From the NCBI RefSeq assembly GCF_000507245.1, contig NC_023035.1:1341501-1405500 (forward strand): a stretch of DNA of 64,000 nucleotides. Reading direction: 5' to 3'. The position numbers and the translations under genes are program-made. The stretch comes from Salinispira pacifica (lineage in GTDB: Bacteria; Spirochaetota; Spirochaetia; DSM-27196; Salinispiraceae). The notes below the pieces were generated by a model that ran no database searches, was not told the DNA's origin, and worked only from the letters and a program-made list of their open reading frames with translations. Within the stretch, counting starts at the first letter, position 1. Each line of letters starts with the position of its first letter. Positions 2,438-61,105 of this stretch are shown one piece after another.

Positions 2438-2490
2438 TATTCAGCTGAATCTCTCCTGGAAAACCCCGGGAATCCGCCTAAAAAAATCAA

Positions 2491-2623
2491 CAGTGCACGG
2501 AAGCTTGTGAAGCACTGCTTTTTTTATTCAAAACCAACATATGTAACGCATGAAAAATACCCGACGCCATCAGTACCGTCGAATTTTCAGAAATATATAT
2601 TTTTCACAAGCTTCGGTGCACTG
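2491..2623. repeat. 133-bp element with 21-bp terminal inverted repeats, copy 1
   Basis: The left arm (2491-2511) reads CAGTGCACGGAAGCTTGTGA plus A. The right arm (2603-2623) is its reverse complement with one mismatch. Each arm contains two hexameric palindromes, GTGCAC and AAGCTT. The interior is AT-rich and shows no coding frame. A second copy with nearly identical arms and a different interior lies at 38313-38458. It is MITE-like in architecture, but I see no clear target-site duplication, and a large stem-loop RNA or a protein-binding site pair is also possible. Confidence 0.75.
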
Positions 2624-2658
2624 TACAAAAATTGCGGGAACGTAACATAATGTGAGAT

Positions 2659-35833: not shown

Positions 35834-37336
35834 ATGGCGTATCTCTATTCATGGCTGGGGAACAGCGACATCCGTCTGATTGAAGATCCTGAGCATCCCG
35901 GTCCTCTGTGCCAGGCGCTGCTGGCAGCCAAACCCCGCAGAGCATACATTCTCAGCAATGCCGGAAGGCAGGTCACGGGAGGGTATGTGAAACACCTTAC
36001 CCGGAGGCTCAACGCCCACGGAGTCCAGAGTTCTGTCTCAGAGCTGGAGGTGGATCTTGAGGATCCCACCGATTATCGGGAAATCTATCTCATCGTGCAC
36101 AGAATTCTCCAGGAGAATCCTCCGGGAAAGTACGGACGGGTGTATCACCTCTCGCCGGGAACTCCCGCCATGGCTGCCCTGTGGATTGTATTTTCCCAAA
36201 GCAGCTTTCCGGCCCGGCTTATTCAAAGTTCCCGTGAACAGGGCATTCGGGATGTAAACCTCCCGTTCGAGCTGGAAGCCAGGAATCTCCCGGGGATTTC
36301 TTCCCTGCTTTCCCGTCTGATGGCGGAGGAGGAGCGGGGAGATTCGGCATTCAGTCATATTATTCACAGCCATGATTCCATGAAACGGCTCATTTCCCGT
36401 GCCAGAAAAGCCTCCGCATTCGATATTCCTGTATTGGTGATGGGGGAGTCGGGTACCGGCAAAGAACTGATTTCCAGGGCCCTGCATAACAGCGGGCCAA
36501 GAAAGGACGCTCCCTTCGTGAGTATCAACTGTGGTGCAATTCCCCGGGAGCTCATGGAATCGGAGCTCTTCGGTCATGTCCGGGGAGCATTCACCGGTGC
36601 CGAGGGGGAACATCTGGGGGCATTCCGTCAGGCTCAGGGCGGAAGTCTGTTTCTCGATGAGATAGGCGAGCTTCCTCCCGATCTCCAGGTGAAGCTGCTG
36701 CGTGTTTTGCAGGACGGGGAGGTGAAGCCCCTGGGAGCAGCCAAGCCGGTGGCTACCGATGTGCGGGTTATCGCCGCAACGAACCGGTATCTTCCCGGGG
36801 AAATTCATGGAGGACGGTTCAGGGCTGATCTATTTTACCGTCTGGCTGTGGCAATTCTCCAGATACCGCCGTTACGGGAGCGACGGGAGGATATCCGGAT
36901 TATCACTGAACATCTTCTGAACGAAATCAATGACGAATTCCGGAGAGTTGATCCCCAATGGGAATTGCGCACTCTTCATGCAGATGCTCTTGAGTTTATT
37001 GATACATATTCCTGGCCCGGCAATATCCGACAGCTGTCCAATACACTGAAGCAGGCCGCATTGTGGAGTGAGACACACATTATATCCAGAGAAGAAATTA
37101 TGGATCTTCTCAGCTTCACTGCCGGTTCAGGGGAACAGAGGGAATCCCGGGAGTATTCCCGGAAGGCAGACCTTCGGGATGAACTCGATGAAATTGCAAA
37201 GACGCGGATCATGGAGAGTCTGGAACGCAATCGCTGGCAGATTGGAAACACCGCCAGGGATCTGGGATTCAGCAATCATCAGACACTGAGCAACTGGATG
37301 AAGCGTCTGAAAATATCCTATAATGAGAACGCATGA
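35834..37336 (+). CDS. Sigma-54-dependent activator with a CARF-like N-terminal domain
   Basis: The 500-residue protein has three parts. Residues 1-150 form a Rossmann-like sensor with AYILSNAGRQVTGGYVKHL and the motif HLSPGTPAMAALW (105-117), typical of CARF-type domains that bind cyclic or linear oligonucleotides. Residues about 176-400 are the AAA+ core: GESGTGKE (204-211), GAFTGA (251-256), LFLDEIGELPP. The C-terminus is a Fis-type HTH (WQIGNTARDLGFSNHQTLSNWM). RtcR has the same domain order, but its HTH differs and no rtcA or rtcB is nearby. ATG 35834 follows TATTAT by seven bases. The next gene overlaps its stop by four bases. Confidence 0.8.
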   Translation: MAYLYSWLGNSDIRLIEDPEHPGPLCQALLAAKPRRAYILSNAGRQVTGGYVKHLTRRLNAHGVQSSVSELEVDLEDPTDYREIYLIVHRILQENPPGKYGRVYHLSPGTPAMAALWIVFSQSSFPARLIQSSREQGIRDVNLPFELEARNLPGISSLLSRLMAEEERGDSAFSHIIHSHDSMKRLISRARKASAFDIPVLVMGESGTGKELISRALHNSGPRKDAPFVSINCGAIPRELMESELFGHVRGAFTGAEGEHLGAFRQAQGGSLFLDEIGELPPDLQVKLLRVLQDGEVKPLGAAKPVATDVRVIAATNRYLPGEIHGGRFRADLFYRLAVAILQIPPLRERREDIRIITEHLLNEINDEFRRVDPQWELRTLHADALEFIDTYSWPGNIRQLSNTLKQAALWSETHIISREEIMDLLSFTAGSGEQRESREYSRKADLRDELDEIAKTRIMESLERNRWQIGNTARDLGFSNHQTLSNWMKRLKISYNENA

Positions 37337-38304
37337 TTCAACTGTTTTATTTTGTTACATCCGCAGCAATGATGGTGAGCATCGGTATTGCATGGCTTAG
37401 TTCCATTTGGTACCTGAGAACCGCCAACCCACTCTACAGGGATCTGATGCGGATGTTCCTTATTATTATGCTCAGGCTGATCATTCAGAATACGGTCTAC
37501 ATCTATTACAATATGGGGAACGCCCACTTTCTCAGTATTCTGTATTCAACCATGGGGCTGGATGTGCTGCTTGTGGCCGTGCTGATCTATTATTATTTGA
37601 AAATGTTTCTCCGTCTCATCCATCTGGACGCAGGCAAGGTATTTCGAATCATACCGAAGGCCTATGCCGTCATGGTATTTTTGGGAACCGCGGTGAACCG
37701 CATGTTGTATTTTTTCGGTCAAACCGCCAGCACAACTCTGCAGGAGATCAGCCGTTGGTATGCCCTGCAGTTTGCGGTCTTTCTTACGGTGTGTGTGATT
37801 CTTCTCCTTGGTAATCTGCGCTTCCGGAAGGAGGGGGATGTTATCCGCCGCACCGTGTGGTCAGGCTTTCTTCTCATGAGTGTTTTTCTGGTTCCCGCGT
37901 ATCTGGCCGACCATTTTATTCATACCAGCTACTGGATCGAGACCAGCAGAGCCGTCTACAACGGCGGTTTTTTCAGCAGTATCACGCTGATTGTCACCAT
38001 GCTTCCGATTTTCTTTCTTATGATGTCGGTAATAACCAGATTCAGAAGCGCTCTTACCTTCATTGATGTGGACAAGGCCGTCGAAGCCATCCGCAGCAGT
38101 GTGGAACTCAGCGACACCCAGGAAGAGATTCTCAGGTATATTTTTTCCCGGGGATGGGGTGACAGTCTCCAGTTCTATGGTTATTTGAAGGTGAGGCGGG
38201 AAATGGCTCCTCTTCAAAAAAAGATGGGCATTTCAAGTCTCTTCCATCTTGTCCACCGGGTGGAAATTGAGCAGTTTCCTGAACTTGAACAGAAACTGAA
38301 TTGA
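37333..38304 (+). CDS. Seven-TM membrane protein with a LuxR-like C-terminal helix-turn-helix
   Basis: In this 323-residue protein, residues about 1-235 hold seven hydrophobic segments. The cytoplasmic tail (about 265-312) reads LSDTQEEILRYIFSRGWG, then a helical part ending KKMGISSLFHLVHRV, which mirrors the LuxR-type HTH (LSxRExEIL to KLGVSSRxELV) but has lost the usual SxxTVxxH recognition pattern. The family occurs in spirochaetes as putative membrane-bound regulators. It starts four bases inside the stop of the CARF-like/sigma-54 gene (ATGA overlap), so the two are translationally coupled. An inverted-repeat element follows. Confidence 0.7.
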   Translation: MIQLFYFVTSAAMMVSIGIAWLSSIWYLRTANPLYRDLMRMFLIIMLRLIIQNTVYIYYNMGNAHFLSILYSTMGLDVLLVAVLIYYYLKMFLRLIHLDAGKVFRIIPKAYAVMVFLGTAVNRMLYFFGQTASTTLQEISRWYALQFAVFLTVCVILLLGNLRFRKEGDVIRRTVWSGFLLMSVFLVPAYLADHFIHTSYWIETSRAVYNGGFFSSITLIVTMLPIFFLMMSVITRFRSALTFIDVDKAVEAIRSSVELSDTQEEILRYIFSRGWGDSLQFYGYLKVRREMAPLQKKMGISSLFHLVHRVEIEQFPELEQKLN

Positions 38305-38312
38305 TCTGTTCG

Positions 38313-38458
38313 CAGTGCACAGAAGCTTGTGAAAAACGTTATTTTTTCAATTTCGCAGTTACCGAACCACTACCGGTCAGGGTGTGAAAAAGGACGACAC
38401 CACATCTATGGGTGCCCCCCCCGGCAGAATTTTCCGCTCCACAAGCTTCCGTGCACTG
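38313..38458. repeat. 146-bp element with 21-bp terminal inverted repeats, copy 2
   Basis: The left arm (38313-38333) reads CAGTGCACAGAAGCTTGTGA plus A; the right arm (38438-38458) is its reverse complement with two mismatches. Both arms match copy 1 at 2491-2623 at 19 or 20 of 21 positions, whereas the interior differs except for a T-rich stretch and GAATTTTC near the right arm. It fills the gap between two convergent genes, eight bases after one stop and eight bases before the other. A run of eight C lies inside at 38415-38422. Confidence 0.75.
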
Positions 38459-38466
38459 TAAATCAG

Positions 38467-41331
38467 TTACAGATCCTCATGAAGTATATGCTGTTCGCAG
38501 TAGGTCTGTACTTCCTCGAAACTCTGGAAAAGCGTGTGAAGCATGGAGATCAGTTCATATCCGTCGGATGAATCGGCCGACCCGTTTTCCGGGAGATTCA
38601 TCCGGGTTTTAAGAACATCTTCCAATTCACCCGCCTGCTGGGCCAGGCTGCCTGCGAAAAGGAGCTGAGCGCCGCTGCGGAGGGAATGGATGAGACGGTG
38701 ACTTTCCTTCCAGTTTTTCTCCTCCAGAAGATCCTGAAGCTTTTGAAGGCTTTGTTCGCTTTCCGCAAGAAATCCTTCCAGGAGTACAAATGCCTGATGA
38801 CTGTCTCCGTCCAGGGTATCCACCACCTTCCTCATCTCAAGAGGACTGCTCTGTCTGTTTCCGTTGGAAGTCGTCGGGGGGGTAGAGGTTCTTCCCGTTT
38901 CAAGGCAGCTTTGTTTGATAATTGAAATCAGTTCTTCCCGGGTGAATGGTTTGAGAAGGGCGGCGTGGAAGGGGCCGTTGCCTTCATTCAGATGTTCCAC
39001 CAGTTCCACATCTGCGGAAATTGCAATAAAACAGGATTGTTTCAGGGACTGTCGCTGACCCAGTCGTTCTGCCAGTTCCAGACCGTCAACCTCCGGAAGG
39101 TGAAGATCCAGGAGAATAATATCATAGGGTGTATTGGCGGCGGTGGTGAGAATCTCACTTCCGCTGCTCAGGCTGTCCAGAGCGCAGCCGCTGTCGTTCA
39201 AGTAATAACTGATAAGTTCCCGGCTTACCGGATAATCCTCGCCCAGAAGAACCCGTTTCCCTTCCAGAAAATTCACAGCATATTGATTTTCCCGAGAAAC
39301 AGCCTTTTCCTCGTCGGGTTTCGCCGCTGTCTGAACCTCCTTCAGTGGAATGGAGAAGAAAAACTCGCTTCCTTCCCCCTCTTTACTTGTCACCTCCAGG
39401 GTTCCCCCCATCCGTTCAACGATTTGCCGGGCTATGCTCAAGCCGAGTCCTGTTCCTGTAAAACGGCGGGCAACCGCCTGGTCACCCCGGTTATAGGCTT
39501 GGAAAATTTCTTCCTGCTTTTGCGCAGGGATTCCAATTCCCCGGTCCCGAACCGAAAAGCGGTATAGGTCATTGCCGCTGTGGAGTATGGAGACGTGGAT
39601 CTCTCCCTTCTGACAGTACTTTACCGCATTGCTGAGAAGGTTTGACAGCACCTGATACAGTCTGAATCTGTCACTGTACACGTAGGCGGGAACCGACGAA
39701 TCCATCTTCAAAAATATTCTCGGTTTCAACGAGTGGTCGTTCACCTGAAAACTTTCAACCAGTTCCCTGCTCATCTCCTTGAGGGATACCGGTTCCTCAT
39801 TCAGTTCCAGCCCCCGGGTCTCCATCTTCTCCTGATCCAGAATCTGGTTGATGAGATGCAGCAGTTTGCCCGCCTCTCCGGACATAATATTCAGTTTGGA
39901 CCGGGCCGAAGGGGAGGTTATGCTCTGCTTCAGAATATCGCTGTAGCCCATAAGAGCATTCAAAGGAGTGCGCATTTCGTGACTCACCGCAGCAAGAACC
40001 GCAGTTCTTGCTTCCAGAGCCTGCTGGAGCTCCCTGGTTTTCTGATCAACCATTTCCTCCATTGAATTATGATATACCCGGAGACTGTCGCTCATATCCT
40101 TGATTTGTACGGTAATATCACTGAATTCCCTGCTGATAAAATTGCTGCGGATCTTCGTGGGATAGGAACCTGAGGCGATAATCCTCAGCGCCTCCTGAAT
40201 CTCTCTCAACGGGGCGGTAATTCCCCTGGAAAGCAGATATCCCAAAATGCTGAAAACCACGCCGATCACCCCTCCGAGAATAATAATACTGCGACGGTTC
40301 TGAATGAGCGTGCCCAGAATTTTATCCTCGCTCATGAACATGCCGATGGTCCATGACCAGCCGTCGGCGGACATATTTCTGAACACGCCGTAATAATTGG
40401 CATTACCATGGTTGAAGCGCAGGCGCTGTATCCCGCTGGCCGCATCCGGCGGTCCGTCTTCAGAGGATCCGTTGGCGTTTTGGGAAACGCTGTACCGTTC
40501 CAGTGCGGTTGCCACCGGGGTGTCCTTGTAGTCCTGAATGGTGCTGAGTCTGCTACCCGGGGGCTCCACATTTTCGGTGATATCTCCGGATATGGCCAGG
40601 AAACGGCGGTTCTCATCGATAATAAACAGTGAGCTGTCGGACCTTCGTGCGGTTTCCCCTACAAAGTCACTGAGATTCTGAAGGGTAAGATCAACGCCGA
40701 TAACCCCCTGAAGTGTTCCTTCATCGCTATACACCGCCCGGGCTGTTGTGATTCCCGGAGACTGACTGGTGAAAAACAGATAGGGATCGGTCCAAATCTC
40801 ACGGGACGATTCTACGCTCATCCGGTACCACGGGCGAGTTCTGGGATCGTAGGTGTCGGCAACTCCTGATCTGTCCTGCTCAACCTGAAGATCTGAGTCA
40901 TAGTGGATGTATCTGGCGCTTCCGGTATTGCGGATAATTTTGGTGAAAAGCCCCCGGGGGTTCTGGTCATTGTACCTGCTGGACATAATAAACTGTCCAT
41001 CGGGTGTGGCATAGAAAATTGCGGAAATCTGGGAGTTGATGTTCATGAGGCTGTAAAAGCTCTCGTTCAGCTCCTGAAAATTCAGGCTGTTCAGTACACG
41101 GTTTTCTGCCAGCTGACGCAGAAGCTGCACGGCATCACTTGCGGTGACCAGATGATCCTTCGTTTGCTGGTAAATAAAATCCGATGACTGCTGCATGATC
41201 TCATCGGCATGATTCACAAAGGTTCTTTGGGATGAAAAGCTGTAGACTCCCAGTGTCAGGGAGACGGTTATAAGGATGAGGATCAGGAAGCTTGCTGGAA
41301 ACAGCGTGTGAAAGGATATCTTAGACCACAT
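38467..41331 (-). CDS. Hybrid sensor histidine kinase (Cache-HAMP-HisKA-HATPase-REC-HPt)
   Basis: The 954-residue membrane protein has a helix at about 8-32, a large dCache sensor (about 40-330, DPRTRPWYRMSVESSREIWTDPY), a second helix, HAMP, HisKA with HEMRTPLNAL (His about 451), the ATPase with DRGIGIP and GTGLGLS, a receiver with LDLHLPEVDG (Asp about 743), and an HPt domain with HSLRSGA (His about 881). It would autophosphorylate and relay phosphate internally to an unlinked regulator. TACAAT lies six bases before the ATG with no Shine-Dalgarno, so it is probably leaderless. Confidence 0.95.
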   Translation of the reverse strand: MWSKISFHTLFPASFLILILITVSLTLGVYSFSSQRTFVNHADEIMQQSSDFIYQQTKDHLVTASDAVQLLRQLAENRVLNSLNFQELNESFYSLMNINSQISAIFYATPDGQFIMSSRYNDQNPRGLFTKIIRNTGSARYIHYDSDLQVEQDRSGVADTYDPRTRPWYRMSVESSREIWTDPYLFFTSQSPGITTARAVYSDEGTLQGVIGVDLTLQNLSDFVGETARRSDSSLFIIDENRRFLAISGDITENVEPPGSRLSTIQDYKDTPVATALERYSVSQNANGSSEDGPPDAASGIQRLRFNHGNANYYGVFRNMSADGWSWTIGMFMSEDKILGTLIQNRRSIIILGGVIGVVFSILGYLLSRGITAPLREIQEALRIIASGSYPTKIRSNFISREFSDITVQIKDMSDSLRVYHNSMEEMVDQKTRELQQALEARTAVLAAVSHEMRTPLNALMGYSDILKQSITSPSARSKLNIMSGEAGKLLHLINQILDQEKMETRGLELNEEPVSLKEMSRELVESFQVNDHSLKPRIFLKMDSSVPAYVYSDRFRLYQVLSNLLSNAVKYCQKGEIHVSILHSGNDLYRFSVRDRGIGIPAQKQEEIFQAYNRGDQAVARRFTGTGLGLSIARQIVERMGGTLEVTSKEGEGSEFFFSIPLKEVQTAAKPDEEKAVSRENQYAVNFLEGKRVLLGEDYPVSRELISYYLNDSGCALDSLSSGSEILTTAANTPYDIILLDLHLPEVDGLELAERLGQRQSLKQSCFIAISADVELVEHLNEGNGPFHAALLKPFTREELISIIKQSCLETGRTSTPPTTSNGNRQSSPLEMRKVVDTLDGDSHQAFVLLEGFLAESEQSLQKLQDLLEEKNWKESHRLIHSLRSGAQLLFAGSLAQQAGELEDVLKTRMNLPENGSADSSDGYELISMLHTLFQSFEEVQTYCEQHILHEDL

Positions 41332-61031: not shown

Positions 61032-61105
<74 letters not shown>

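Follow-up and report, generated by a model that had tools for sequence, protein, structure and literature searches.

The two repeats of the window

Two places in the window (the whole stretch of DNA analysed here, 64,000 nucleotides of the Salinispira pacifica chromosome) carry the same 21-bp arms as inverted repeats, and the question they raise is whether they are copies of a mobile non-autonomous element, as the original prediction put first, or a long-armed site with a regulatory or RNA role. The arm pairs were found at the predicted positions, with 0 expected in 100 shuffles, and the overall lengths of 133 and 146 bp were correct. Counted from GTGCAC, the true ends of the element are 4 bp further out (2489-2625 and 38311-38460), and the 9-bp target site comes next. 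The parts of both copies are listed below.

2489..2625, + strand: MITE copy 1, 129-bp class (span includes the 4-bp outer ends)
2491..2511, + strand: left arm of copy 1, CAGTGCACGGAAGCTTGTGAA
2603..2623, - strand: right arm of copy 1, CAGTGCACCGAAGCTTGTGAA
2534..2549, + strand: first half of the central motif of copy 1, CCAACATATGTAACGC (from the ~40-copy alignment)
2563..2578, + strand: second half of the central motif of copy 1, GACGCCATCAGTACCG (from the ~40-copy alignment)
2480..2488, no strand: left 9-bp target-site copy of copy 1, AAAAAAATC, 6/9 identical to the right copy
2626..2634, no strand: right 9-bp target-site copy of copy 1, CAAAAATTG
38311..38460, - strand: MITE copy 2, 140-bp class, core 142 bp (span includes the 4-bp outer ends)
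38313..38333, + strand: arm of copy 2, CAGTGCACAGAAGCTTGTGAA
38438..38458, - strand: arm of copy 2, CAGTGCACGGAAGCTTGTGGA
38398..38411, - strand: first half of the central motif of copy 2 (from the copy alignment)
38367..38384, - strand: second half of the central motif of copy 2 (from the copy alignment)
38302..38310, no strand: left 9-bp target position of copy 2, TGATCTGTT, its first 3 bases being the stop of gene 37333-38304
38461..38469, no strand: right 9-bp target position of copy 2, AATCAGTTA, its last 3 bases being the stop of the facing gene
38467-41331, - strand: facing gene at copy 2

The two copies lie in opposite orientations and belong to different size classes (129 versus ~140 bp). 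Both come just after a stop codon, as had been noted: copy 1 lies about 50 bp past the gene stop at 2437, and copy 2 directly on a stop. Copy 2 sits between two convergent genes whose stops form both ends of the 9-bp site: the TGA at 38302-38304 opens it and the facing stop at 38467-38469 is its mirror image. No target duplication survives at copy 2 (1/9 equal). An insertion of this type, at a stop-stop junction, leaves both convergent genes intact.

Some details of the first description have to be amended. The two variable arm bases had been given as strictly purines (RR), but the right arm of copy 1 has CG, and CA, GG, AG, CG and TG occur genome-wide. Of the two likenesses reported between interiors said to be otherwise unrelated, the 'T-rich start' and GAATTTTC, each is found at non-homologous places and is probably due to chance, since the copies differ in size class and orientation. 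What both size classes do keep, in about 40 copies, is a central core (CCAGATATGGTGG ... CACCRCTACCGGTAGYGG); the remainder of the interior is poorly conserved.

A family of short elements and its insertion signature

To count the elements, the whole chromosome (3.78 Mb) was searched with the pattern GTGCACnnAAGCTTGTG, allowing at most one mismatch. This gave 96 arm matches, against 0 for the reversed control pattern; the arms thus form many pairs and are not limited to the two places of the window. Pairing of the arms yielded 39 short elements, with a core of 129 bp (n = 10), 139-142 bp (n = 27), 167 bp (n = 1) or 91 bp (n = 1, a shortened copy). The same ends were also carried by eight copies of an insertion sequence (IS) of 1393-1395 bp, which provides the transposase gene that the mobility hypothesis called for. 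Some arms were single or truncated in this genome-wide pairing.

Several elements depart from the common form. The 167-bp element (L060:465) has imperfect arms and a partly palindromic interior unlike that of either size class. L031, L042 and L048 are truncated elements with a single arm; in L031 the surviving right end begins within or right behind the stop of a gene. In L061 a thioesterase-like gene (1014-1403) terminates inside the arm of a MITE (~1386-1528) whose right arm is decayed, so that the arm sequence GTGCACCACAGCTTGTGA gives the gene its final codons (VHHSL) and its stop. A 3.1-kb stretch (2767485-2770607), considered as a possible larger transposon, was rejected: the left arm is that of a MITE whose right arm has decayed, and on the other side a gene contains a match to the arm by chance.

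When left and right flanks were compared at all offsets, a single offset was found to be common to the IS, the short elements and the elements of other genera. At this offset (17), pooled flank identity was 395 versus 260 expected, the excess being found only at positions 5-13; it spans 9 bases, 4 bases away from GTGC on each side. The flanking duplications sought as a sign of mobility are thus present, with a constant geometry. At least 7 of the 9 bases were equal in 8/38 short elements (0.27 expected), 3/8 IS copies (0.00 expected), 9/20 elements of genome G002 (0.21 expected) and 3/10 of G003 (0.11 expected); the 2/10 of G001 (0.22 expected) are too few to count. On the other hand, 26/38 short elements had no recognisable duplication (at most 5/9 equal) despite nearly perfect arms. 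A missing duplication need not mean old age, since it was also lacking in 5/8 of the IS copies, which are 97-99% alike at the protein level. Recombination between copies was considered as its cause: end matches of 8/9 between elements numbered 7, versus 2.3 in shuffles, but this null ignores the shared target consensus and nothing follows from it.

The consensus of the target, G|TAAnnnTTA|C, is a palindrome; it is the same for the IS and for the short elements, and recurs in related genera. At 41/172 ends the first 3 target bases are a stop triplet, whereas most other positions have 3 to 11 such triplets. Accordingly, the stop-codon enrichment, copy 2 included, can be explained by the TAAnnnTTA target. 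This target favours stop codons and the stop-stop junctions of convergent genes, which are a harmless landing place. Judged from 400-bp flanks, many copies lie close behind stop codons and the placement is not strictly 3'.

The elements have what is expected of MITEs. They are short, gene-less and multicopy (about 40 copies, most with a core of 129-142 bp); their terminal inverted repeats are common to an autonomous element of the same genome, the 1.4-kb IS; a 9-bp target-site duplication occurs at a fixed offset, though it is missing from many individual copies; and presence or absence at orthologous sites could be followed, with one clear element-free site in a congener (G001/G003) and one probable. 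We conclude that both features of the window very probably belong to one MITE family whose arms are bound and cut by the transposase of the coresident 1.4-kb IS, which we infer mobilises the elements in trans. The mobile non-autonomous element first proposed is thereby supported by each of the suggested checks that could be run: many paired copies, flanking duplications, an element-free site and a transposase gene bounded by the same arms. In such a mechanism the terminal inverted repeats of ~20 bp of the gene-less elements would serve the IS transposase for binding and cutting; it would bind the arms of the short elements in trans and insert these elements at TAAnnnTTA-like sites.

The partner IS and its transposase

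The IS has one open frame, coding for a transposase of 398 amino acids. Its N-terminus is a zinc ribbon and its core has an RNase H-type fold (AlphaFold2, mean pLDDT 73), for which Foldseek ranked retroviral integrases first and placed the ISCth4 transposase and Mos1 lower down. The catalytic residues are likely D151, D242 and D285 (the last is E in one relative). E298, considered as the third, is in a low-confidence loop; D285, on a helix and aligned near the corresponding residue of IS1, is more likely.

No Pfam family was matched by the transposase, and the NCBIfam models gave only weak matches: 18.8 bits for ISL3 (cut-off 180; weak matches in 9/10 members) and 15.7 bits for IS1 (cut-off 100; weak matches in 8/10 members, best E 2e-8). 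ISL3 elements generate an 8-bp target duplication, whereas the partner IS makes 9 bp. A 9-bp duplication is typical of IS1, and that of the partner fits it. In addition, the ends of IS1 (GGTGATGCTGCCAACTT) align by eye, in register, with those of the partner (NNYAGTGCMCCAAAGCTT), and InsA matches its N-terminal domain (hhalign E 4e-5). However, IS1 has two overlapping frames, InsA and InsB, joined by frameshift, the partner has a single open frame instead, and the catalytic parts are not significantly alike.

Relatives of the transposase in species genomes were found, for 79 out of 80, in records named as spirochaetes, the remaining one being a low-coverage contig of a Bacteroidetes MAG; none was found in plasmids. 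The IS ends of the relatives have a common consensus, close to AGTGYCnCRAAnnTTGT by eye, which indicates that what the short elements carry as arms is the terminal repeat of this IS family. From these comparisons, the transposase lineage is covered by no curated family and is almost confined to the spirochaete phylum.

Versions of the family in related genomes

Genus-specific versions were found in relatives of the same family. That of G003 has the arm GTGTACnGAAGCTTGT (GTGTAC..) and lengths of 100-101 and 111 bp; that of G001 has the arm GTGCTCCAAAGCTTGT (GTGCTC..) and is mostly 141-143 bp long; G002 has about 150 copies of 101-102 bp with the arm GTGCGCAAAAGGTTGT (GTGCGCAAAAGG..). G001 and G003 form one genus, yet their dominant families differ. 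In three copies the G002 IS ends in GTGCGCAAAAGCCTGT, and so has the genus-specific part of the arm in common with the G002 short elements. G002 (L135-L154) is a 3.5-Mb draft genome with IS copies at contig ends, and L142 holds one tandem pair of elements. In most other genomes of the order this arm was not above control. A separate set of short elements occurs in G007, which belongs to a different family of the order: seven copies (C1, loci L255-L261; 78-79 and 89 bp) share the ends ACTGACGCCAATTTTRTT with that genome's own IS. A duplication was seen in 0/7 of them, and they carry a central CTCTGAGACAGCGACAG-like motif.

The search for an element-free orthologous site was also successful. For one G001 element, the flanks are conserved in the congener G003 (~74% identity) with no arms between them, and at a second site G003 has just 47 bp at the expected position of the element, which is probably element-free too.

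Conserved ends, divergent interiors and fixed length

In the alignment of the 140-bp class, the conserved centre (CCAGATATGGTGG then CACCRCTACCGGTAGYGG) lies between stretches of poorly conserved DNA. A sequence model of the interior matched, in this genome, elements alone (in both size classes) and nothing free of arms; it also matched some G002 and G003 elements weakly, in the same region of the model. The interior thus belongs to the element, shows homology throughout the family and does not represent an RNA gene of its own; a free-standing interior was rejected for this genome.

Divergence is very unequally distributed. Between copies of the 140-bp class, divergence is 0.5% at the 28 constrained arm positions and 55% in the interiors, where a copy differs from its nearest neighbour by a median of 30%. 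In the 129-bp class there are 2 arm changes versus 34.6 expected at the interior rate (P 6e-13). Such arm conservation beside 55% interior divergence exceeds what is expected of a single burst of transposition, which counts against the MITE reading. It would agree with a host takeover in which the elements act as long-armed signals at the DNA or RNA level (at mRNA 3' ends or in chromosome organisation), the arms being selected at each site even where no target duplication survives, and the stop codons shortly upstream of many copies point the same way. Nevertheless, we consider this improbable. The arms differ between genera of one family, and the dominant families of G001 and G003 are not the same; one orthologous site in G003 lacks the G001 element; and the TAAnnnTTA target can account for the stop codons. 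An RNA function fared no better: RNAalifold, run on both strands and both classes, gave no support, column covariation was not above that of shuffled columns, and interior folding was weak (z of about -1 versus shuffles). The two variable arm bases show no compensation across arms, the sides being independent. Neither copy 1 nor copy 2 was found to have a terminator, the two share no promoter, and Rfam gave no match at either. With a placement that is not strictly 3', the regulatory or RNA role first envisaged is not upheld. The sole Rfam match in the window was a tRNA gene at 61032-61105.

The short elements could also be immobile relics of the 1.4-kb IS, left by internal deletions, as might be suggested by their identical arms and by the presence of some truncated and single-arm copies. 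This is very hard to credit: the interior model has no match inside the IS copies, the core length is tightly fixed, unlike that of random deletions (sd 0.7 bp; one 140-bp copy was counted once extra, to no effect), and 9-bp duplications of their own flank several of the short elements, which indicates that these moved as short elements.

Returning to MITEs mobilised by the IS transposase, the simplest account is that their lineages persist only through continued transposition, which would demand intact arms and a length that makes both ends face the same side of the helix, and the rest would drift. The interior may thus be a drifting spacer that has to hold both ends in helical phase, its length, and perhaps the central motif, letting both ends pair in very short DNA. 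Size classes within three genomes are spaced by about one helical turn, at 10 (G007), 10.7 (G003) and 10.7 bp (G000), those of G001 being 18 and 33 bp apart. The lengths of the classes show clustering by helical phase (P 0.003 versus uniform lengths), a lead only, as the classes are few and partly related and the idea was drawn from the same data. For IS50, it is reported that short transposons can depend on helical phase. We tentatively suggest, while thinking it somewhat less probable than its contrary, that an element below ~145 bp survives only if both transposase-bound ends share a helix face, so that sequence would drift, length would stay fixed to ~1 bp and new classes would arise in helical-turn steps, repeatedly across genera. 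The central motif, for its part, may mark a DNA bend or a site of transposase contact.

Comparison with known elements and significance

Elements of this kind are well known; what is unusual here is the combination of near-perfect ends with very different middles of tightly fixed length. MITEAba12 of Acinetobacter, the partner of ISAba12, is a gene-less element of ~110 bp with 9-bp duplications in 40% of copies, and 90% of its copies are exactly 113 bp long and highly alike (PMC6382973). It resembles the spirochaete family in an IS identity limited to the terminal repeats, in AT-rich targets and in the 9-bp duplication (PMC6382973). However, the ISAba12 ends (GGCTTTGTTGCACAAA) are unrelated to the spirochaete arms, and, unlike the MITEAba12 copies, the spirochaete interiors are up to 55% apart and the arms vary by genus. 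RUP of Streptococcus pneumoniae, a 107-bp intergenic repeat in ~108 copies, is similar in being short, intergenic and provided with terminal repeats like those of a coresident IS, IS630-Spn1 (PMC2229807), but IS630 has a TA-type target instead of the 9-bp TAAnnnTTA and a different type of transposase. The Correia/NEMIS elements of Neisseria (>100 copies) also have two size classes (~107 and 155 bp) and terminal repeats of similar length (~24 bp); their classes differ by a 50-bp internal block and not by a helical turn, and they feature promoters, an IHF site and transcripts cut by RNase III (PMC2229807, PMC10969869). In the literature searched, there was no report of MITEs in free-living spirochaetes, nor of the present family with its autonomous partner.

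To conclude, three related genera have their own versions of the family and a separate one exists in another family of the order. Having several genus-level versions makes this a good natural data set for the joint change of MITEs and transposases, suited also to testing whether end-to-end helical phasing sets the smallest size of a transposon. Conserved ends, fixed length and free sequence form a pattern that deserves specialist attention: if the phasing idea is true, a physical rule of transposition would be naturally recorded in the interiors.
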